Positions 1 through 21,344 of a stretch of 26,809 nt of DNA are shown here, one piece after another. The DNA comes from a virus, in the IMG/VR virus record IMGVR_UViG_3300046751_000885, positions 1-26,809 of that record. One strand, written 5' to 3'. The position numbers were made by a program, and so were the translations under genes. Every line of letters starts with the position of its first letter. The first letter of the stretch is position 1. Under the pieces are notes generated by a model. That model was given only the letters and a program-made list of their open reading frames with translations, did no database searches and was not told the origin of the DNA.

Positions 1-2961
1 GCGACCTATATCTATTGCGGCATCACTTGAAGCTGGCGTGCTTGTGTTTTCTGGAGTAATAGTGTTATTTGCAGAATCAAATAAAACGCCTACATCGCCT
101 GTTCCTATATACATACGATTTGCGCGTGTACCAACGGAGCCTACTGTTAAGCCGTTTTTGGCTATTCTAATAACTTGGCCGTCATCGCCTGTGTTGTTAA
201 GTAATAATGCAGGGTCTGTTGCGCCAGAGCTTTCTTTTGCAACGTGAACACCACCACTACCAAAAACCATAAAGCCATTGCCAGTAGTGTTGTTGTATAA
301 AGTAGTATCAGTAGTCCCAACCAACAAGTTGCCAGAAGCATCTAGCGTCATAACCTGCGAACTACCGCTAGTATAGAACGACGCAATATTGTTGCCTGAT
401 GCGCCTACTGTTAGCAGTGCTGTAGTTCCTGAGTTAGCTACAGTATGCAGGGTTGCGGCTGGGCTTTGAGTATTAATACCGACGTTACCGCTATCATCAA
501 TAGTCATTACAGCATCAGTTTCATCAAAGATTGAGAGCTTATTGCCGTTAACACCAATGGTGTAATCTCGCCCAGTGTTTTCGCTTAAAACAAGGGCGGG
601 AGCATAACCTTCAATATTTAAAACAGAGCCATAGCTGTTAGGGTTAGAGACAGACGACGCCCCTATAACGACGTTGCCGCCATTGAAGTAACTATCACCA
701 CCAGCAGTTATCACAACATCTTCGTTGTTCCCTGCGTCAATTAGTACAAGCTCACCGTCACCATTTGCATCTAGCCTAATAGCCGCTTTGTCTGAGCCGT
801 TGCTATTAGAAAATTGCGCCATAGTTGCTGATGACGTGCCAGAAGCTTGAACATCTAAGGCATAAGCACCGCTGGTTTTAAGGACTAATCTTTCATTAGC
901 GGCAAACCACTGGAACTTCGCAGTCGTGCCAGTGTCTTCGTAGAAGCTTATGTCTCCGTTGTTGGCTATTCCTAATCGCTCTGTATTATTAGTGTGTAAA
1001 CTCATGGGAATGTTTGCTATTGTTTTAACAAACAACTCAGTAGACCGACTTTGTATTTGTGAATAATTAGACGCTCCACCATTTGGCCTGAAATTTAACT
1101 GCGCAATATTGTCAGACGACCTGCCATCAAAATTAACTGTGTTAGCAGAAGAGTCAGAGTTAAACGTTGATGCGCCACTAGATGCCGTCACAGTACCCGT
1201 AACGTCGATGCCTGTGGAGGTTGTGGCTAGTTTTTGAGCGTTGCTGTGATACAGACTAACTGCACCGTTAGGAGCGTCTGCATAAAAAAGAGTATTTACA
1301 CCGGTAGAGTTTTTAATTGCAAAATCATCAGCTAGTATTTCTAAATTGCCTGCTGTGACATCATGTATAATACTTTTACTACCATTGTGGTAAATCTGTA
1401 GGTCAGATCCAGCACCAAACACAGCTTTATCATTGTCACCAAAGTTAATATCAGCAGAGGTAGTCATACCGTCTGTGGTAATAACGCCTGTAACGTCGAT
1501 GCCTGTGGAGGTTGTGGCTAGTTTTTCTGCGCCTGAAAAATACAGTTCAGCGTCGGTTGCCGTAAATCGTGCCTTTGTAGTTCCTAAGTCACCGCTTGCA
1601 ATTATGACGTTGTTATCTCCGCCAATATAAAGGCTACCTGTCCCAACGTCAGTGATTACCGAATTTGATGCGCTATGATAAATCTGTAGGTCAGAGCCAG
1701 CACCGAAGATGGCCTTAGAGTTATCAGCAAACTTTAGGTCTTCATCACTAGCTGACCATGTGAGTTTTGCAGTCGTGCCCGTATCTTCGTAGAAGCTAAT
1801 GTCGCCGTTGTTGGCGATACCAAATCTTTGAGCTGTATTACCTGAATTGAAAACATCAAAAGAACCATTAGTGCCACTTAACCTTACATGACCATCACTA
1901 TTACCTAAAAGAACTTGTCCAGCACCTATATTATTTGCTCTTCGTAAATCTGCTACATTTGCTGTTGCACTTGATATGGTCAAACCATCAGCAGTCACTG
2001 TGCCAGTTACGTCGATGCCTGTGGAAGTTGTGGCTAGTTTATTAGACCCTAAATGTGAAAGTGTCACGCCGCCATCAGTAAGAATCTTAATGGCTTCGTA
2101 ATCACTGTGTTCTGATTGGTCTACTGAATAAAACGTAGCAATGCCGTCAGCGCCAGAATCACGCCCAGCCTCAATACGCAAACCACGGCCAGTAGTGTCG
2201 TAATTAGCTGAACCAAAATAAACATCTACTTGAGAATTGTTGGCGTTGCTAGTGTTGTAAACTTTTAATGCTTCAGCAGTAGCTCCTGCACTATCAACGC
2301 GAACTGTAACAAGACCATCAGAAACAACTTCGTCAGATTGCATCCTGCCAGTAACGTCGATGCCTGACGAGGTTGTGGCTAGTTTGGCTGACCCGTCGTG
2401 GTACAGTGTTACCGCACCGTTACTGACGGCTGTCAAATAATTTTCGCTGAAAACATCTTGAAGGCTTAGGTTGTTGCCTTGTGCTACAAGGTCACCCGTT
2501 CCAACGTCACGAACTAAGCTTTTAGTCCCATCATGATAAATCTGTAGGTCAGAGCCAGCACCGAAAACAGCCTTGTCGTTGTCGCCGAATGAGATGTTCC
2601 CGGTCGTAGTTAGGCTAGGTACCGTTACACCCTTGTTGAATGAGAACCCGTCTGTACTCGATGAGTAGAGCAAGTTGGCGCTTGCTCCGTCGATCGTGAT
2701 ACCGGCTCCATTCGCTGCAGCTGCGTCCGCTGCGCCAGAAGCGAGAACAATGTTCTTGTCGTCAATCGTCAGGGTGGCTGAGTTGATTGTCGTGGTTGTA
2801 CCATTTACGGTTAAGTTACCACCCACAACCATGTTGCCGGATGTCGTTACATCGACGACATTGACAATGTCACTGCCAGTCAGGTCGAGGTTATCACCCG
2901 AGGGAAGCTCTTTGATGTTCGTATTGTCGGCGTCGACAATAAGTGGGAATCTATCTGCCAT
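1..2961 (-). CDS. Tail fibre / receptor-binding structural protein, 3' end outside window
   Basis: The frame is open for all 987 codons from the ATG at 2961 to the left edge, so only the N-terminal part is present. It starts MADRFPLIVDADNTNIKELP. Around residues 50-80 it has VNGTTTTINSATLTIDDKN, a segment I know from marine phage fibre proteins. The rest is repetitive: KLATTSTGIDVTG occurs four times, FGAGSDLQIYH three times, and an NNGDISFYEDTGTT block twice. Near residues 800-830 it reads SGNVGINTQSPAATLH, the usual GNVGI-type motif of such fibres. The start overlaps the stop of the preceding gene (TAATG), so the two are probably translationally coupled. Role inferred: a trimeric beta-rich fibre contacting the host surface. 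No catalytic site was seen. A chaperone-type C-terminal domain, if any, would lie beyond the edge. Confidence 0.85.
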   Translation of the reverse strand, partial: MADRFPLIVDADNTNIKELPSGDNLDLTGSDIVNVVDVTTSGNMVVGGNLTVNGTTTTINSATLTIDDKNIVLASGAADAAAANGAGITIDGASANLLYSSSTDGFSFNKGVTVPSLTTTGNISFGDNDKAVFGAGSDLQIYHDGTKSLVRDVGTGDLVAQGNNLSLQDVFSENYLTAVSNGAVTLYHDGSAKLATTSSGIDVTGRMQSDEVVSDGLVTVRVDSAGATAEALKVYNTSNANNSQVDVYFGSANYDTTGRGLRIEAGRDSGADGIATFYSVDQSEHSDYEAIKILTDGGVTLSHLGSNKLATTSTGIDVTGTVTADGLTISSATANVADLRRANNIGAGQVLLGNSDGHVRLSGTNGSFDVFNSGNTAQRFGIANNGDISFYEDTGTTAKLTWSASDEDLKFADNSKAIFGAGSDLQIYHSASNSVITDVGTGSLYIGGDNNVIIASGDLGTTKARFTATDAELYFSGAEKLATTSTGIDVTGVITTDGMTTSADINFGDNDKAVFGAGSDLQIYHNGSKSIIHDVTAGNLEILADDFAIKNSTGVNTLFYADAPNGAVSLYHSNAQKLATTSTGIDVTGTVTASSGASTFNSDSSANTVNFDGRSSDNIAQLNFRPNGGASNYSQIQSRSTELFVKTIANIPMSLHTNNTERLGIANNGDISFYEDTGTTAKFQWFAANERLVLKTSGAYALDVQASGTSSATMAQFSNSNGSDKAAIRLDANGDGELVLIDAGNNEDVVITAGGDSYFNGGNVVIGASSVSNPNSYGSVLNIEGYAPALVLSENTGRDYTIGVNGNKLSIFDETDAVMTIDDSGNVGINTQSPAATLHTVANSGTTALLTVGASGNNIASFYTSGSSQVMTLDASGNLLVGTTDTTLYNNTTGNGFMVFGSGGVHVAKESSGATDPALLLNNTGDDGQVIRIAKNGLTVGSVGTRANRMYIGTGDVGVLFDSANNTITPENTSTPASSDAAIDIGR
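1197..2385 (-). repeat. Dispersed in-frame repeats in the fibre gene
   Basis: A block of about 35 bp encoding KLATTSTGIDVTG occurs at about 1197-1236, 1491-1526, 2008-2040 and 2350-2385, nearly identical in DNA. A second block of about 45 bp, encoding FGAGSDLQIYH, occurs near 1391-1436, 1680-1724 and 2539-2584 (the last just outside these limits). A third, encoding NNGDISFYEDTGTT, occurs near 928-966 and 1768-1806. All are in the fibre reading frame, and their spacing varies from about 290 to 520 bp. This DNA identity provides sites for recombination inside the gene. Confidence 0.8.
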
Positions 2962-3374
2962 TACAATACTCCAACGACTGTGTTCTGCGATCTACCAACT
3001 ACGGTAAACGCCGCATTTGCCAGACTGATGTTTGTGTTTGCTGATCTTCCAAAAACCGTGAAGGTCGTGCCGTTTGCTGCGGTCGTGATCTCTTCCATAA
3101 CTGCGGCAACAACACGAAGCGCTATAACCGCTCCTGAAGAAAATGCTGCAGCCGTTGTGCTGTCTTGAGCCCTTGTTACGGTCAAGGTGTTTGTCGAAAT
3201 CGCTGTTACCTTAACAATCTCCGAGCCAGAGCCTTCACCTATCGAAGCATAGAAGTAGTCGCCCGACCCCAAGGAAGGGAAGGACGACGCATCTGACACC
3301 GATATCGACGTAGCGGAGCTTGTTATGGAACTCGCAAGCGTTGTGCTGGCGAGGTTCGCAAACTTAAGGGCCAT
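2961..3374 (-). CDS. Small Ser/Thr/Ala-rich phage structural protein
   Basis: 137 residues. The ATG at 3374 is preceded by a good Shine-Dalgarno (GAGG, 7 nt spacing). Composition is dominated by S, T, A and V, with short alternating stretches (SSATSISVSDASSFPSL, NTLTVTRAQDST) typical of beta-rich virion proteins. The C-terminal third contains two similar units, FTVFGRSANTNISLANAAF and FTVVGRSQNTVVGVL, i.e. an internal FTVxGRSxNT duplication. It lies between the 148-residue protein and the fibre gene and overlaps the fibre start. I infer a virion component at the tail tip or fibre base. No named family recognised with confidence. Confidence 0.7.
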   Translation of the reverse strand: MALKFANLASTTLASSITSSATSISVSDASSFPSLGSGDYFYASIGEGSGSEIVKVTAISTNTLTVTRAQDSTTAAAFSSGAVIALRVVAAVMEEITTAANGTTFTVFGRSANTNISLANAAFTVVGRSQNTVVGVL

Positions 3375-3400
3375 ATAATAACCTCAACAGAATCAATAAC

Positions 3401-3847
3401 TTAGGAGGCAGAAACCGTCCACGTTATGGTCAAACTGTCCGAAGTACCCTTGTTGATGACACTAAAAACAGTGTGACAGAGCATTGTTCCACCGCTGCTC
3501 GCATTAAAGATGCCAGCTTCTGTTACAGCCGCTGCACTGCTGGGCGTACCTGCAGGGAATGTTGCAACATAAACAACGTCATTGTTGTTGACGGTAGTGC
3601 TGGTCAATGCCGCACGAGCAGACTCAGAACCCAAGGCAGTGTCACCTGCAGATGCAGCTGTACTGTCAGTTCCGATAGCCATGTGGCTCATTACGCTGGA
3701 CGATGTGCCAGCCATGCGAGATGCAACATAGTTTTTGCCTGTTGTAACAACTAGGTTTTCAACAGACTCTTTTTGCTTTATTACACCGTCTTCTGAGGTG
3801 ACGACAATATCCAGCCGCCCCATTAGTTTAAGATCGTCTTGGATCAT
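3401..3847 (-). CDS. Hypothetical tail-associated structural protein
   Basis: 148 residues; ATG at 3847 with GGAG 9 nt upstream. The N-terminus (MIQDDLKLMGRLDIVVTSED) is followed by SVENLVVTTGKNYVASRMAG and HMAIGTDSTAASAGDTALGSE. The end is a beta-rich stretch finishing in SLTITWTVSAS. The VVTTGKNYVASRM...MAIGTD pattern recurs in short proteins next to tail fibre genes of many phages, so a role at the fibre attachment site is inferred. It is separated from its neighbours by only 12 and 26 bp, so it is clearly part of the leftward late operon. No enzymatic motif. Confidence 0.7.
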   Translation of the reverse strand: MIQDDLKLMGRLDIVVTSEDGVIKQKESVENLVVTTGKNYVASRMAGTSSSVMSHMAIGTDSTAASAGDTALGSESARAALTSTTVNNNDVVYVATFPAGTPSSAAAVTEAGIFNASSGGTMLCHTVFSVINKGTSDSLTITWTVSAS

Positions 3848-3859
3848 TGTTTGTCTCCA

Positions 3860-5248
3860 CTAGTCAGCGTTAAGTAGCATGAAGCCCATATCGCCCTTAT
3901 TGAGCACTGCGCTTGCTACCAACTTCTGAGCAACTAAAACGTCACTCACAGTTACACTGTCCGATTTACCAATCCGTGGAGACAGCACGGGTGTGTCCGA
4001 TACCGCGATAGAATCTTGTGCAAGCTTGGACACAGAAAAAGCATGCACTTCTGAAGTAATTATATTATCCGACGCCGCCTTGGTAAATGCAAAAATCGCG
4101 TTATCTGTCAAGGGGTTAGTGGAATCTTGTAGCGACTTGCCAAAAATCTTTTCGCTGGATTCCGTAACGGTATAAGAATCGGTTCTTACCTTGCCTACAT
4201 CGATAGTCTCATCGTCGGCAAACGTAACGTTTTCTGACTTTGACAGCCCGGCATCGATGACAGCAGGATCTGTAAAAGTAAACGCATCATCCACTAGCTT
4301 GCCAAACGTGACCGCGTGCTCGTCTTGAATTGTGTATATGTTGAACTTAAACGCCAAAGACTCTTTATCTATCTGGTTGAAGTCATCAAGCGTAAAGAAG
4401 TCCTGAAGTGCAATTTCAACACCCATTGTCTGAGAGTCAGTGAACGAGAACTGATCGTCCGGCGAGCCGGCAACATTTGTAAACCCATCACCAAACGAGA
4501 ACTCAAAAGAGAAGGGGGAGCGCGTTACCGTGAGTAGTTCAGTAACACTAATCGTTTCATTTTTGCCTAGCCCGGCGCTGTAAATAAGATCCTCGGTAAC
4601 ACTGACAGAGTCGGCCTCACCCTTGGTCGGGTGGAAAAGAGGACTATCACTTAGAGCAGTGCTGTCCACTGCCGACCGAGACATACTAATCGCGGTGCTT
4701 TCTCCAATCGAGGAGCTGTCGGCAAGCACTGAGGACACATCAAGCTCGGGCGCATCACTGAATATAACTGCGTCGTCATGACTTCTGTTGAAGGCCATAA
4801 CATGCTGCAGCGAATCAGAAACGCTGTAAGAGTCTACGTTTACTTTGTTCGCATTGGTAGAGACTGCGTCAGTTAAGATCTCTAGATCTAGCAGCCCGCG
4901 ACCGAAGCCAAACACGAGGTTCTGATCTGATACACCTACGGTATCTGAGTAGCTAGGCTCTGGGGATAGTGATACTGCATCACTGAAGCCAAACTCATTG
5001 GCAAAGTAGTAGATGGTCCGTTCGGGGTTGACGTGAACGTCGTGCAGGAACAAGTTACGCCAGTTAGGTGTGGCGTGAAGTCTCTGATACCTGATCTCCG
5101 GGGCTAGTGCTCTATAGCTGGTATCCAGAACAAGATTTCTTTCTGAGATAACAGCAGCAAAGGTACGCCGAGAAGCTTCGACGTATATCTTGCGGCTCGT
5201 AGCGTTCGCGACCAGCCTTCGGAATTTTACCTCGGCAAAGATCGCCAT
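3860..5248 (-). CDS. Repeat-rich structural protein (DS-V-S-D/E repeats)
   Basis: 462 residues from ATG 5248, seven bases before the BppU-like gene's stop is reached from upstream. Residues 1-85 form a distinct N-terminal domain rich in R, Y and hydrophobics (NWRNLFLHDVHVNPERTIYY). From about 85 to 440 it is built of degenerate units of about 18-20 residues around the pattern K-x3-D-S-x2-V-[ST]-[DE]. Examples are KVRTDSYTVTESSEKIFG, KLAQDSIAVSDTPVLSP and KSDSVTVSDVLVA. The chain ends with a short hydrophobic tail (MGFMLLNAD). The repeats are acidic and contain no Cys or enzymatic motif. Position between the BppU-like protein and the fibre genes points to a baseplate or fibre-linked decoration protein; adhesion is inferred only. 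Confidence 0.75.
   Translation of the reverse strand: MAIFAEVKFRRLVANATSRKIYVEASRRTFAAVISERNLVLDTSYRALAPEIRYQRLHATPNWRNLFLHDVHVNPERTIYYFANEFGFSDAVSLSPEPSYSDTVGVSDQNLVFGFGRGLLDLEILTDAVSTNANKVNVDSYSVSDSLQHVMAFNRSHDDAVIFSDAPELDVSSVLADSSSIGESTAISMSRSAVDSTALSDSPLFHPTKGEADSVSVTEDLIYSAGLGKNETISVTELLTVTRSPFSFEFSFGDGFTNVAGSPDDQFSFTDSQTMGVEIALQDFFTLDDFNQIDKESLAFKFNIYTIQDEHAVTFGKLVDDAFTFTDPAVIDAGLSKSENVTFADDETIDVGKVRTDSYTVTESSEKIFGKSLQDSTNPLTDNAIFAFTKAASDNIITSEVHAFSVSKLAQDSIAVSDTPVLSPRIGKSDSVTVSDVLVAQKLVASAVLNKGDMGFMLLNAD
3929..4999 (-). repeat. Array of degenerate DS-rich repeats (protein level)
   Basis: About 16-18 imperfect units of roughly 18-20 codons, clearest at the C-terminal end where successive units begin KSENVTFADD, KVRTDSYTVT, KSLQDSTNPL, KAASDNIITS, KLAQDSIAVS and KSDSVTVSDV. 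Conservation is at the protein level; DNA copies have diverged, so this looks old rather than freshly expanded. Confidence 0.65.
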
Positions 5249-16241: not shown

Positions 16242-16565
16242 ATGTCAGACCTAACCAACAACCCAATCTGCCTAGTTCTAGCCAGCCTCATCGCTGACGA
16301 CATCGCTGAGCTCATAGACGCTCACCACGACTGGGATTACGCACTCGATCGTCAGCGTCACTACAGAAAGACCTGTGACGGCTTTGCGCCTGAGTACATC
16401 GAGGAGTGGAACGCAAAAGCCCTGAATCGCGTTCTCGACGTGGAGCGCAAGCTAGCCTCAATCGGCATCAACGTGCAGGAAGCGCACAACCGCCTGAAGG
16501 CTAAGCAGGAAGACCTGCGGCCGGTCGTTACAGAAGAGCAATTATTTGGAGGTGCGACAGCATGA
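16242..16565 (+). CDS. Hypothetical early protein, 107 residues
   Basis: ATG 16242, again 16 nt after the start of an ACACGGAGAG leader (16226-16235), matching the previous gene. The N-terminus is hydrophobic-acidic (CLVLASLIADDIAELIDAHH) and the rest is helical with charged residues (ALNRVLDVERKLASIGINVQ). It ends EEQLFGGATA, overlapping the next start by 4 nt (ATGA). No family recognised. Confidence 0.65.
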   Translation: MSDLTNNPICLVLASLIADDIAELIDAHHDWDYALDRQRHYRKTCDGFAPEYIEEWNAKALNRVLDVERKLASIGINVQEAHNRLKAKQEDLRPVVTEEQLFGGATA

Positions 16566-16912
16566 GCAGACAGCTACCAACAGCGGACGAGATCCGCGAA
16601 TCAGTCACCGACTGCAACACTTGGCATCGACGTTTTTTCCGGTGCTTTATCGATGGCTCGTACATAGGCCGAGCCCATTACCTATACAACTGCGAGAAGG
16701 TCCTCGACGTGTACCACAATGATCGTGCCCTTCGCGCCTTTGCTATCGAGACGTTCTGCGACTTCATCGCACACGAGGAGGGCTGCAAGCCGTCAACGGT
16801 CCGGGTGCACTTGGTGAAGGTCGTTGACCGGGACGTTTTGGAAGCGCTGAACGTGGAGCTGATCGACGACCTGCGCGACCTCGTCCGCGATCAAGTGGAG
16901 GGCGCAGCTTAA
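16562..16912 (+). CDS. Hypothetical early protein, 116 residues
   Basis: ATG 16562 overlaps the previous stop. The sequence has RQLPTADEIRESVTDCNTWH, then FRCFIDGSYIGRAHYLYNCE and FCDFIAHEEGCKPSTVRVHL. The C-terminus is an acidic helix (LNVELIDDLRDLVRDQVEG). Five cysteines are scattered rather than in CxxC pairs. No known domain recognised. Its TAA stop is followed on the very next base by the first hammerhead ribozyme, so a terminating ribosome would cover stem I of the ribozyme. Confidence 0.65.
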   Translation: MSRQLPTADEIRESVTDCNTWHRRFFRCFIDGSYIGRAHYLYNCEKVLDVYHNDRALRAFAIETFCDFIAHEEGCKPSTVRVHLVKVVDRDVLEALNVELIDDLRDLVRDQVEGAA

Positions 16913-16969
16913 CCGCACTGATGAGAGCCGGAGGGAAACCGGCCGAAACACCCTGCGGGGTGTCTGCGG
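16913..16969 (+). ncRNA. Hammerhead self-cleaving ribozyme 1 (type I)
   Basis: All invariant core elements are present: CTGATGA at 16918-16924, GAAA at 16945-16948 and GTC at 16962-16964. Stem I is CCGCA (16913-16917) with TGCGG (16965-16969). Stem II is G16925-C16944, a bulged A16926, then GCCGG (16927-16931) with CCGGC (16939-16943) and a 7-nt loop AGGGAAA. Stem III is ACACCC (16948-16953) with GGGTGT (16958-16963) and loop TGCG. Every stem pair is Watson-Crick. Cleavage is expected after C16964. Both ends leave through stem I, so it is type I. It starts on the first base after a stop codon and ends 34 bases before the next ATG. Tertiary loop contacts cannot be judged by eye. Confidence 0.92.
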
Positions 16970-16980
16970 AAATCCACCGC
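16966..16980 (+). promoter_or_regulatory. Hairpin competing with ribozyme 1 stem I
   Basis: GCGG (16966-16969), loop AAATCCA, CCGC (16977-16980). The left arm is the 3' strand of ribozyme stem I, so the two pairings exclude each other. After cleavage it would sit at the 5' end of the downstream mRNA. The equivalent hairpin exists after ribozyme 2 with a matching base change. Confidence 0.6.
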
Positions 16981-17003
16981 TCAATGACCAACAGGAGGTC
17001 AGC

Positions 17004-17279
17004 ATGAATACTTTTACGAACCCGGCTTTGGCAGCAGAGCCTCTCACTGAGGTCTACAGCGCCACTGATTGCGTTTTCAACGACGTTCGCACCGCAACCG
17101 TGTACAAGCGCGGTCGCCTCGAGCACTGGCCTGAGGGCTCATGCTGGGCGTTCGAGTGGCGTGTCGTCACAGGGTACGACAGCGACCCCCGCATCGTGTC
17201 CAACCGCTGCTATCAATACTACGACGACGCTGAGGCTGATGCCGATACTTGGGTGTACCACCCGGAGGTGGAGTCATGA
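17004..17279 (+). CDS. Hypothetical early protein, 91 residues, downstream of ribozyme 1
   Basis: ATG 17004 with a strong Shine-Dalgarno (AACAGGAGG, 6-nt spacing). The protein is rich in aromatic and acidic residues (LEHWPEGSCWAFEWRVVTGY, SNRCYQYYDDAEADADTWVY) and short; no family recognised. Its message is bounded by two predicted ribozyme cuts (16964 and 17413), so it may be released with the 28-residue membrane peptide on one 449-nt RNA. The stop overlaps the start of that peptide (ATGA). Confidence 0.68.
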   Translation: MNTFTNPALAAEPLTEVYSATDCVFNDVRTATVYKRGRLEHWPEGSCWAFEWRVVTGYDSDPRIVSNRCYQYYDDAEADADTWVYHPEVES

Positions 17280-17362
17280 GGCAGTCCGAAGAGCAGCAAG
17301 TGCTCGTGATGCTAATCCTGAGCGCCATCATGCTGGTTGCCCTGTATGCCCCACTGTACTAG
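17276..17362 (+). CDS. 28-residue single-span membrane peptide
   Basis: ATG 17276 overlaps the upstream stop, with GGAGGTGGAG before it. It reads MRQSEEQQVLVMLILSAIML then VALYAPLY. Residues 9-25 form one hydrophobic span after a short polar N-terminus. Its TAG ends at 17362, and ribozyme 2 begins at 17363. Small phage membrane peptides of this kind often inhibit host functions or aid lysis or superinfection exclusion; which, if any, applies is unknown. Confidence 0.7.
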   Translation: MRQSEEQQVLVMLILSAIMLVALYAPLY

Positions 17363-17418
17363 CCACACTGATGAGTGTCGGAGGAATACCGACCGAAACG
17401 CCCAAGCGGCGTCTGTGG
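17363..17418 (+). ncRNA. Hammerhead self-cleaving ribozyme 2 (type I)
   Basis: Same architecture as ribozyme 1. Core: CTGATGA 17368-17374, GAAA 17395-17398, GTC 17411-17413. Stem I is CCACA (17363-17367) with TGTGG (17414-17418). Stem II is G17375-C17394, bulged T17376, GTCGG (17377-17381) with CCGAC (17389-17393) and loop AGGAATA. Stem III is ACGCC (17398-17402) with GGCGT (17408-17412) and loop CAAGC. Relative to ribozyme 1 there is a compensatory change in each stem: G-C to A-T in I, C-G to T-A in II, A-T to G-C in III. Cleavage is expected after C17413. It begins on the first base after a stop codon. Confidence 0.92.
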
Positions 17419-17428
17419 AATTCACCAC
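17415..17428 (+). promoter_or_regulatory. Hairpin competing with ribozyme 2 stem I
   Basis: GTGG (17415-17418), loop AATTCA, CCAC (17425-17428), the counterpart of the hairpin at 16966-16980. The G-to-A change in the CCGC arm matches the C-to-T change in the shared arm, so pairing is kept. Confidence 0.6.
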
Positions 17429-17452
17429 TCTACCGTCCAACAGGAGGACAGT

Positions 17453-17710
17453 ATGAATAGCAAAGTCGTAAAGCTGTCAGGCTTCAAGAAGCAACCTATC
17501 GGTGACCGCGTATGTCGGTCGGTTTACCAGAGCGATACCGACTGGTCTGAGGTTCAGGCCATGGCATTGCAGAAAGGCATCCTTGACCCCGACAAGCTGT
17601 GGCTCCATGACATAGCCCGGTTCAATGAAATGGGTTCGGGGTTCCCCGGTACCGTTAAGGAGTTCCTTCGCTTACTACAGCAAGGTCGCTCTATTCCCTC
17701 TTACAAGTAA
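17453..17710 (+). CDS. Hypothetical early protein, 85 residues, downstream of ribozyme 2
   Basis: ATG 17453 with AACAGGAGG at 6 nt, almost identical to the leader of the gene at 17004. The frame is open further upstream, but that part is the ribozyme, so the ATG at 17453 is chosen. The protein begins MNSKVVKLSGFKKQPIGDRV and has DWSEVQAMALQKGILDPDKL and TVKEFLRLLQQGRSIPSYK. No family recognised. It is followed within 9 nt by an intrinsic terminator. Confidence 0.68.
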   Translation: MNSKVVKLSGFKKQPIGDRVCRSVYQSDTDWSEVQAMALQKGILDPDKLWLHDIARFNEMGSGFPGTVKEFLRLLQQGRSIPSYK

Positions 17711-20264: not shown

Positions 20265-20273
20265 GGTTTTTTT
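20251..20273 (+). terminator. Intrinsic terminator at the convergent junction
   Basis: CCCTAC-TTCG-GTAGGG followed by TTTTTTT: perfect 6-bp stem with a stable TTCG tetraloop. It overlaps the last codons of the HTH gene. The leftward gene stops at 20272, so early transcripts from both sides meet here. For leftward transcripts the downstream bases are TTATCTTG, a weaker signal. Confidence 0.88.
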
Positions 20274-20691
20274 ATACCGGCACAAACCGCTGAATGAGGT
20301 AGTGGAGCATGACCTCCATGTCCTGATCATCGCCCCGGTCACGCCTCCCGCCAATCGCATTGTAATCAGGCTCGTCGCATAGATTGATGTAGCCTATGCC
20401 ATCCTTCCACGAGACAAACAGAAACGCTGGCACGCCAGTGACGCCCGTCAACAAGCGTATCCGGGCAACCTTATCAGCACTGATCATGTACGTGGAAAAG
20501 TGGTCCCGGGTATAGTTCCTCACCTTGATCTCGACCATGCCCACAACGTAACCGTCACGCTCAAAGAACCAATCGAGACCGTACAGTCGTTTGGCTTTGA
20601 TGGCGCGGGCGTTGTACTTCTCCGCTATGGTATCTGCTATCTCGCGTTCTGCGCTGATGTCACGCGATGTTTCGTAAATAGGTCTAGCCAT
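20272..20691 (-). CDS. PD-(D/E)XK nuclease-like protein 1
   Basis: 139 residues, ATG 20691. Residues 38-60 contain D40 in GLDWFFERDG and E54-x-K56 in MVEIKVRNY, the D-x(13)-ExK pattern of the PD-(D/E)XK superfamily. An upstream helix carries E16/E17 (SAEREIADTIAEKY), as is usual. The C-terminus has VSWKDGIGYINLC and an Asp/Arg-rich loop. Such phage proteins act as Holliday junction resolvases, replication nucleases or host-DNA degraders; which one is not decidable here. It is the last gene of the leftward replication block. Confidence 0.6.
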   Translation of the reverse strand: MARPIYETSRDISAEREIADTIAEKYNARAIKAKRLYGLDWFFERDGYVVGMVEIKVRNYTRDHFSTYMISADKVARIRLLTGVTGVPAFLFVSWKDGIGYINLCDEPDYNAIGGRRDRGDDQDMEVMLHYLIQRFVPV

Positions 20692-20959
20692 GACTCTTGG
20701 CCCATATCCGACGTGTCCAATAGGTCACGATCTCGTTGAAGTTAGGAACGGGCTCGTCATCAGGGAGCATAGCTAACAGCTCCTTGATGCGGTCCACGTC
20801 CTGCTTGGCGTAGTGTTGAGGGAGTTCGAGGTAGAGAGACCGGAACATCATGTCGTGGAAGTCTTTGTCGATGTGCTTTCGCACGTAGGCCTCCACAATT
20901 GGATACTCCAGATGGATGGCGGCGAGGTGGAGCTGTCGCCTAAATTCCGGCACTCTCAC
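20684..20959 (-). CDS. Hypothetical protein in replication block (GTG start)
   Basis: 91 residues if started at GTG 20959 (another GTG lies at 20953). Contains PEFRRQLHLAAIHLEYPIVE, YVRKHIDKDFHDMMFRSLYL and a Pro/Asp loop (LPDDEPVPNFNEIVTYW). Mostly helical, no motif recognised. Overlaps both neighbours (8 nt downstream, 20 nt upstream), which fits the compact leftward operon. Weak Shine-Dalgarno. Confidence 0.58.
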   Translation of the reverse strand: MRVPEFRRQLHLAAIHLEYPIVEAYVRKHIDKDFHDMMFRSLYLELPQHYAKQDVDRIKELLAMLPDDEPVPNFNEIVTYWTRRIWAKSHG

Positions 20960-21344
20960 AGAGTTTCTCTCTAATGATCATGATCCCTTCATCGAGACCA
21001 ACAGTGCAGGTGTAATCGAAGTTCTCCGGGTAGTCCCCTATAACGTGTAGAGGGAACACCATGCGGATCGGACGTCTATCGAATCGGTATATCAGGAGGG
21101 GGATATATTTTTTCCCCGCGGCTTTTAAAATTTGCTCCCACCACCACGTCTGATGGATGTCACCCTTGGCGTAACGCTTGCACTCAATGAGAAAGGGCCC
21201 AAGCTTCAGGTCCCCCTCATCTGCCACCTGATACTGCGTCAGGTTTCGGCGCAGGCCTTGAGTCGCTTCATCACCCAGCCAGTCACGGAATGTGTTGACT
21301 ACCTCACGCTCGAACTGAGCGCCCTTTGTCCGTGAATTAACCAT
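20940..21344 (-). CDS. PD-(D/E)XK resolvase-like nuclease 2
   Basis: 134 residues, ATG 21344 with GAGG upstream. The start NSRTKGAQFEREVVNTFRDW and the core DEGDLKLGPFLIECKRYAKG (D45, E54, K56) match the Hjc/VRR-type nuclease pattern: Kxx(x)FEREV helix, then D-x8-ExK. A WWWEQILKAA helix and a beta pair (YIPLLIYRFDRRPIRMVFPL) follow. Likely a Holliday junction or branched-DNA resolvase clearing recombination intermediates before packaging. All catalytic positions appear intact. Confidence 0.72.
   Translation of the reverse strand: MVNSRTKGAQFEREVVNTFRDWLGDEATQGLRRNLTQYQVADEGDLKLGPFLIECKRYAKGDIHQTWWWEQILKAAGKKYIPLLIYRFDRRPIRMVFPLHVIGDYPENFDYTCTVGLDEGIMIIREKLCESAGI

Follow-up and report, generated by a model that had tools for sequence, protein, structure and literature searches.

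The window, a stretch of 26,809 nucleotides from the virus record IMGVR_UViG_3300046751_000885, comes from the genome of a marine tailed phage, of which it is a fragment with terminase, portal, and primase-helicase genes. Its structural genes lie on the minus strand, and its plus strand carries a block of small genes without known function. Two hammerhead ribozyme motifs, both on the plus strand, are found amid these plus-strand genes. Copy 1 (16913–16969) adjoins the stop codon TAA (16910–16912) of a gene for a 116-residue protein (16562–16912), and copy 2 (17363–17418) adjoins the stop codon TAG (17360–17362) of a 28-residue open reading frame (17276–17362). The cassettes are separated by a gene for a 91-residue protein (17004–17279), whose stop codon is overlapped by the start of the 28-residue frame (ATGA), and copy 2 is followed by a gene for an 85-residue protein (17453–17710). 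All of these genes are on the plus strand, and the 116-, 91-, and 85-residue products are unknown. The last codons of the 28-residue frame are also present in two related records, L033 and L050. Among named phages, no direct relative was found at the DNA level; the best terminase match is that of Roseobacter phage CRP-7, at merely 34% identity, and the CRP-7 genome contains no hammerhead with the pattern of the window. Elsewhere in the window, 20272–20691 and 20940–21344, both on the minus strand, encode small PDDEXK-type phage nucleases (Pfam PDDEXK_14 and PDDEXK_15).

Both motifs adopt the type I layout, in which stem I is open. Copy 1 was recognized from its sequence, a structural finder, a covariance model, and the fold of the isolated stretch, and copy 2 from the first three of these. 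Copy 1 reads CCGCA-CTGATGA-GAGCCGGAGGGAAACCGGCC-GAA-ACACCCTGCGGGGTGT-C-TGCGG and copy 2 reads CCACA-CTGATGA-GTGTCGGAGGAATACCGACC-GAA-ACGCCCAAGCGGCGT-C-TGTGG. In copy 2, stem I is composed of 17363–17367 and 17414–17418, the core CTGATGA occupies 17368–17374, stem II spans 17375–17394, GAA lies at 17395–17397, stem III spans 17398–17412, and the cleavage-site base is C17413; the layout of copy 1 at 16913–16969 is identical. The core elements CTGATGA, GAAA, and GTC (the GUC cleavage site) are present in both copies. Stem I has five pairs and stem II has six pairs plus one bulged base after G10.1, A16926 in copy 1 and T17376 in copy 2. Stem III has six pairs in copy 1 and five in copy 2, the shorter stem being due to a 1-nt deletion relative to the orthologues in L033 and L050. 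The predicted cut falls between C16964 and T16965 in copy 1 and between C17413 and T17414 in copy 2. An outer extension of stem I in copy 1 (GGGCG/CGCUC) was considered and dropped, as copy 2 has no equivalent. In copy 2, positions 17366–17379 are self-complementary (ACACUGAUGAGUGU), and some of the catalytic core could be locked up in the resulting hairpin.

A previous sequence-only reading of this DNA had described 17363–17418 as a second hammerhead that keeps every core base of the first and differs from it by a compensating change in each stem. The coordinates are exact, the type I hammerhead is complete, and the exchanges G16915–C16967 to A17365–T17416 in stem I, C16928–G16942 to T17378–A17392 in stem II, and A16950–T16961 to G17400–C17410 in stem III are all found as described; the bulge in stem II and the pair missing from stem III of copy 2 had been overlooked. 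The two copies are 82% identical over a 44-nt stretch and 91% identical in the leader, and are therefore related copies, not independent inventions.

The core pattern CTGATGAN{8,30}CGAAAC matches twice in the window against 0.06 matches expected, which excludes a chance origin, and none of the shuffled sequences contained two matches. The structural finder, which requires all three stems, returns exactly copies 1 and 2 from the window and nothing from 60 shuffled windows. A family covariance model scores copy 1 at 82.0 bits and copy 2 at 76.4 bits, both copies being part of its training set; when the same model was used to look for a third, degenerate copy in the window, everything else scored 11 bits or less. 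No Rfam hammerhead model matches the window at its gathering threshold. RAGATH-1 (RF03152) is the sole Rfam hammerhead family with a match in the region up to an E value of 10, giving copy 1 25.9 bits against a gathering threshold of 56.3, and copy 2 is absent from its matches. The findings point to many type I hammerheads in phages, forming a large group, that escape the Rfam models.

Covariation was examined in an alignment of 36 distinct, non-redundant relatives. The core is invariant in this alignment except at the free position 7, and 93.7% of the paired cells hold: stems I and III pair in 100% of cells and stem II in 91.6%, with 12 unpaired cells at the first position of stem II that all stem from a subtype in which that pair is shifted by one base. 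Changes on both sides of a pair occur in 119 cells; shuffling the columns leaves 36, and sliding the partner strand leaves no more than 8. Owing to the kinship of the sequences, these counts do not represent independent events. Position 3 of stem I is C-G, G-C, or A-U, and position 4 takes five pair types. The sequence-only reading had argued from the two copies that the RNA fold is under selection and had named related phages as the place to look for covariation or for stems broken without compensation. Among the 36 relatives the stems covary and no such breakage occurred, which supports selection on the fold. That reading is incomplete rather than wrong, in that the stem I strand also covaries with a second partner downstream.

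Hammerheads are not universal among the relatives of this phage. An initial search of viral contigs for a strict version of the core yielded 67 stretches, and among the records found by a search for terminase relatives, 14 of 36 contain hammerheads; half of the larger records tested are free of them. At least two hammerheads around small genes on the same strand, the mark of the phage gene-flanking clusters, are present in the window itself, which has two. L050, L037, and L054 have three each, and the 11-kb record L131, a distant relative, has nine on its minus strand within about 4 kb (358–4545), nearly one per small gene. In one of its elements (2611–2681), CCGAAGA replaces the core CTGANGA and all stems are intact. 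In another subtype, which is not present in the window, A9 is separated from stem II by an additional U (CUGAUGA-U-GGC); it occurs in L033, L037, L050, L054, L038, L099, L268, and many genome contigs and is common both in phages and among contigs from many bacterial phyla. Short hammerhead-like BLAST matches were also seen in two named gut phages, Faecalibacterium phage FP_Mushu (L475, 401–482) and Flavonifractor phage Castelnaud (L474, 401–460), the latter antisense to an annotated gene.

In both copies, loop II is complementary to the sequence downstream of stem I, hereafter the tail. The predicted pseudoknot of copy 1 (16934–16975) pairs G16934, G16935, and A16936 with T16973, C16974, and C16975, and that of copy 2 (17384–17423) pairs GAAT (17384–17387) with ATTC (17420–17423), for three and four pairs, respectively. 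Complementarity of at least four pairs between loop II and the tail is found in 40 of 114 hammerheads compared with 12.7 ± 3.1 with permuted tails, and one pseudoknot pair covaries (alignment pair 25–66, G-C to A-U). A contact between loop II and the tail has previously been described for hammerheads, and a loop II pseudoknot is used in about 40% of the gene-flanking phage hammerheads of PMC3088659.

Directly after the loop II contact strand, 6–7 nt past stem I, lies a second complement of 4–5 nt, whose partner in stem I is the 3′ strand. The hairpin of copy 1 (16966–16980) joins GCGG (16966–16969) to CCGC (16977–16980), and that of copy 2 (17415–17428) joins GTGG (17415–17418) to CCAC (17425–17428). 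Each hairpin excludes stem I, and each is backed by covariation in the family, in which the pairing takes the forms GCGG/CCGC in copy 1, GUGG/CCAC in copy 2, and CGGG/CCCG in a third paralogue of the relatives. The 36 aligned sequences had been gathered with a pattern that fixes tail bases 1 and 2 (CC), and the test therefore uses the next two, which match in 32 of the 36 (permuted mean 6.7, maximum 14); the remaining four have merely three tail pairs. On the alignment, the tail pairing shows 43 both-side changes compared with at most 13 when slid. At least four tail pairs are present in 52 of 157 hammerheads (19.6 ± 3.6 permuted) and in 45 of 129 from a set chosen regardless of the tail (21.4 ± 3.4 permuted), each count being above every permutation.

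The tail follows stem I through five sequence types. L246 and L236 have the 5′ strand of stem I in common, but their 3′ strands are not alike, and their tails vary in step with the 3′ strand; at wobble pairs of stem I, the tail follows the 3′ strand over the 5′ strand by 7 to 2. From these sequence comparisons, the tail appears to track the 3′ strand and not to be a copy of the 5′ strand. The downstream repeat is not taken to be a target-site duplication, given that it complements a variable internal strand and tends to follow that strand at wobbles. A tail pairing of 5 bp is also found in the unrelated Faecalibacterium phage FP_Brigit, but beyond the group of the window the tail hairpin is a minority feature, strongly predicted in 16% of other hammerheads compared with 9% permuted. 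The pairing itself is well supported; its function is inferred.

The 3′ strand of stem I is also the 5′ end of the downstream messenger once the RNA is cut. In folded 3′ products, the tail hairpin has a probability of 0.99 in copy 1 and 0.98–0.99 in copy 2. In the uncut RNA, an energy model without the pseudoknot gives the tail hairpin a probability of 0.29 in copy 1 and 0.78 in copy 2, with stem I of copy 2 at merely 0.02. By this model, competition of the tail hairpin with stem I before the cut, strongest in copy 2, could reduce cutting.

In the leader downstream of each hammerhead, a good ribosome binding site serves a start codon that lies 34 nt beyond the ribozyme, and start codons in the wider set lie mostly 18–39 nt past stem I. 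A hairpin encloses the ribosome binding site before gene 17004 (16985–17001, TGACC-AACAGGA-GGTCA) and before gene 17453 (17435–17449, GTCC-AACAGGA-GGAC), both on the plus strand. Such hairpins are present in 24 of 107 ribozyme-linked leaders (4.9 ± 1.8 permuted) and at 105 of 1143 genes without a ribozyme (65 ± 7.6 permuted). Because enrichment is also seen at ribozyme-free genes, the ribosome-binding-site hairpin was rejected as a part of the ribozyme module and is a wider feature of these phages. Small covarying hairpins, for example AATCT-GAGG-AGATT and GACCT-AAGG-AGGTC, often surround the ribosome binding sites of this phage group, as in L131, L152, L202, L099, L213, and the window. One L131 cassette suggested a switch by which release of the strand would expose the ribosome binding site; this idea fails for the group of the window, in which the two hairpins can coexist.

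Hammerheads with tertiary contacts can re-ligate, and 5′-hydroxyl ends and 5′-terminal stems hinder 5′-dependent decay in bacteria. Given this background, the simplest reading of the tail is one-way release followed by capping. The explanation that we favor, and judge to be probable, is that the hammerhead cuts the early-gene transcript between small genes, after which the tail captures the freed strand and caps the messenger. We infer cutting in the cell, with the following order of folding. The ribozyme would fold as it leaves the polymerase, with stem I paired and loop II docked on the tail through the pseudoknot, and cleavage would follow at C16964 or C17413, on the 3′ side of the base. 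On the upstream side, the messenger would retain a structured 3′ end right behind its stop codon, and the downstream messenger would receive a 5′-hydroxyl leader of about 40 nt with its ribosome binding site. The cut would free the 3′ strand of stem I from the ribozyme, allowing it to pair with the tail (GCGG with CCGC, GUGG with CCAC), and the resulting 5′-end hairpin would block re-binding and re-ligation, making the cut one-way, and should stabilize the messenger as a shield against 5′-end-dependent RNases. A fuller proposal is put forward tentatively, at a little under even odds. In it, the natural hammerhead would contain its own strand switch, with two covarying partners for one strand of stem I, and its own cut would yield a capped messenger, possibly under the control of the ribosome at the adjoining stop codon. 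Each cassette would then serve as a one-way gene separator, sealing the messenger on its upstream side and capping the one on its downstream side.

The main rival of product capture is a switch that acts before the cut. A ribosome finishing at the upstream stop codon would mask stem I on its 5′ strand, leaving the 3′ strand to pair with the tail, the ribozyme would be off, and the messenger would stay joined; cutting would take place only with the stop codon free. The placement of the ribozymes is consistent with such a switch. As the sequence-only reading had noted, copy 2 begins immediately behind a stop codon, with no base between, and copy 1 does likewise; more widely, 45 of 150 hammerheads with a recognizable upstream frame begin exactly on the base that follows the stop codon. 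In a sizeable second class, drawn from viral and genome contigs, the upstream frame ends at the core UGA (CUGAUGA), such that the catalytic core would double as a stop codon; this class needs gene-call checking, because upstream frames were picked mechanically, by taking the longest run without a stop codon that reached 40 codons or more. The competition of the tail with stem I in uncut RNA (equilibrium values, without the pseudoknot) also favors the switch. However, a compact phage genome would equally pack elements tightly behind stop codons, and the switch would have no time to act if cutting outpaces transcription of the tail. We consider the pre-cut switch unlikely, and it can coexist with product capture.

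It is distinctly doubtful that these are ordinary messenger-separating phage hammerheads with a functionless downstream complementarity. Many equally placed phage hammerheads lack the tail hairpin, and the basic arrangement has already been described, but the tail tracks stem I through five sequence types, in tail-blind sets as well. A further alternative treats the cassettes mainly as DNA, with the repeated islands serving as recombination joints that swap small genes and RNA cutting being secondary. Cassette 1 (16911–17006) is 97% identical to a cassette of L050 in which both flanking genes differ, and gene 17004–17279 follows a CCGCA-type hammerhead in the window and a CCCGT-type hammerhead in L050; genes have therefore been exchanged at the cassette, and the comparison indicates that genes are swapped while cassettes remain. 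Recombination joints, however, would conserve sequence, not compensated pairs, and paralogues in the same genome differ in step on both strands, which makes this alternative highly improbable. The sub-threshold Rfam scores, the competing folds of copy 2, and the core-mutant copy in L131 might suggest that the motifs have lost their activity or arose by chance, but this is scarcely credible in light of at most 0.06 chance matches expected per window and an invariant core with compensated stems across 36 relatives.

Among known systems, the glmS ribozyme also cuts itself in a bacterial messenger leader and leaves a 5′-hydroxyl end, as proposed for the hammerheads of the window. The glmS ribozyme depends on a metabolite, and less messenger is left once it has cut; the hammerheads of the window have no visible ligand domain, and their cut product would carry its own 5′ hairpin. 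Similar to the elements described here, the type II hammerheads of Streptomyces phages (RF02276) lie in gaps between small phage genes, ahead of a ribosome binding site. An example is found in phage Paolo (L267, 512–576, 56.4 bits) between two small genes, and BLAST suggests similar type II hammerheads in many Streptomyces phages. In this type, the open stem is stem II rather than stem I, and the cut product is therefore without the strand switch. RAGATH-1 (RF03152) shares the type I layout and the conserved core, but its model has a minimal stem II and a longer stem III than the hammerheads of the window.

The closest counterparts are the hammerheads clustered around genes in phages and prophages that were published in 2011 (Perreault et al., PMC3088659). 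According to the available text of that report, tandem phage hammerheads of like arrangement cut in vitro and in Escherichia coli, and the proposed role is to cut long transcripts into shorter messengers. Those clusters belong to the same ribozyme class as the elements of the window, and in both cases multiple copies border single phage genes or short blocks of them. They differ in that the available text of PMC3088659 mentions no downstream sequence with which the 3′ strand of stem I would pair anew, and no exact stop-codon placement. A description of a competing hairpin or re-pairing tail was not found in the accessible main texts searched, and re-pairing of the tail with the stem I strand appears to be a new feature of hammerheads. 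The role of bacterial and phage hammerheads is described as still open in PMC6155905. The elements of the window belong to the known gene-flanking phage hammerheads, with the downstream re-pairing tail as an apparently new variant feature, and a second conserved partner for the cut strand offers a specific and cheap test of a role in messenger processing.
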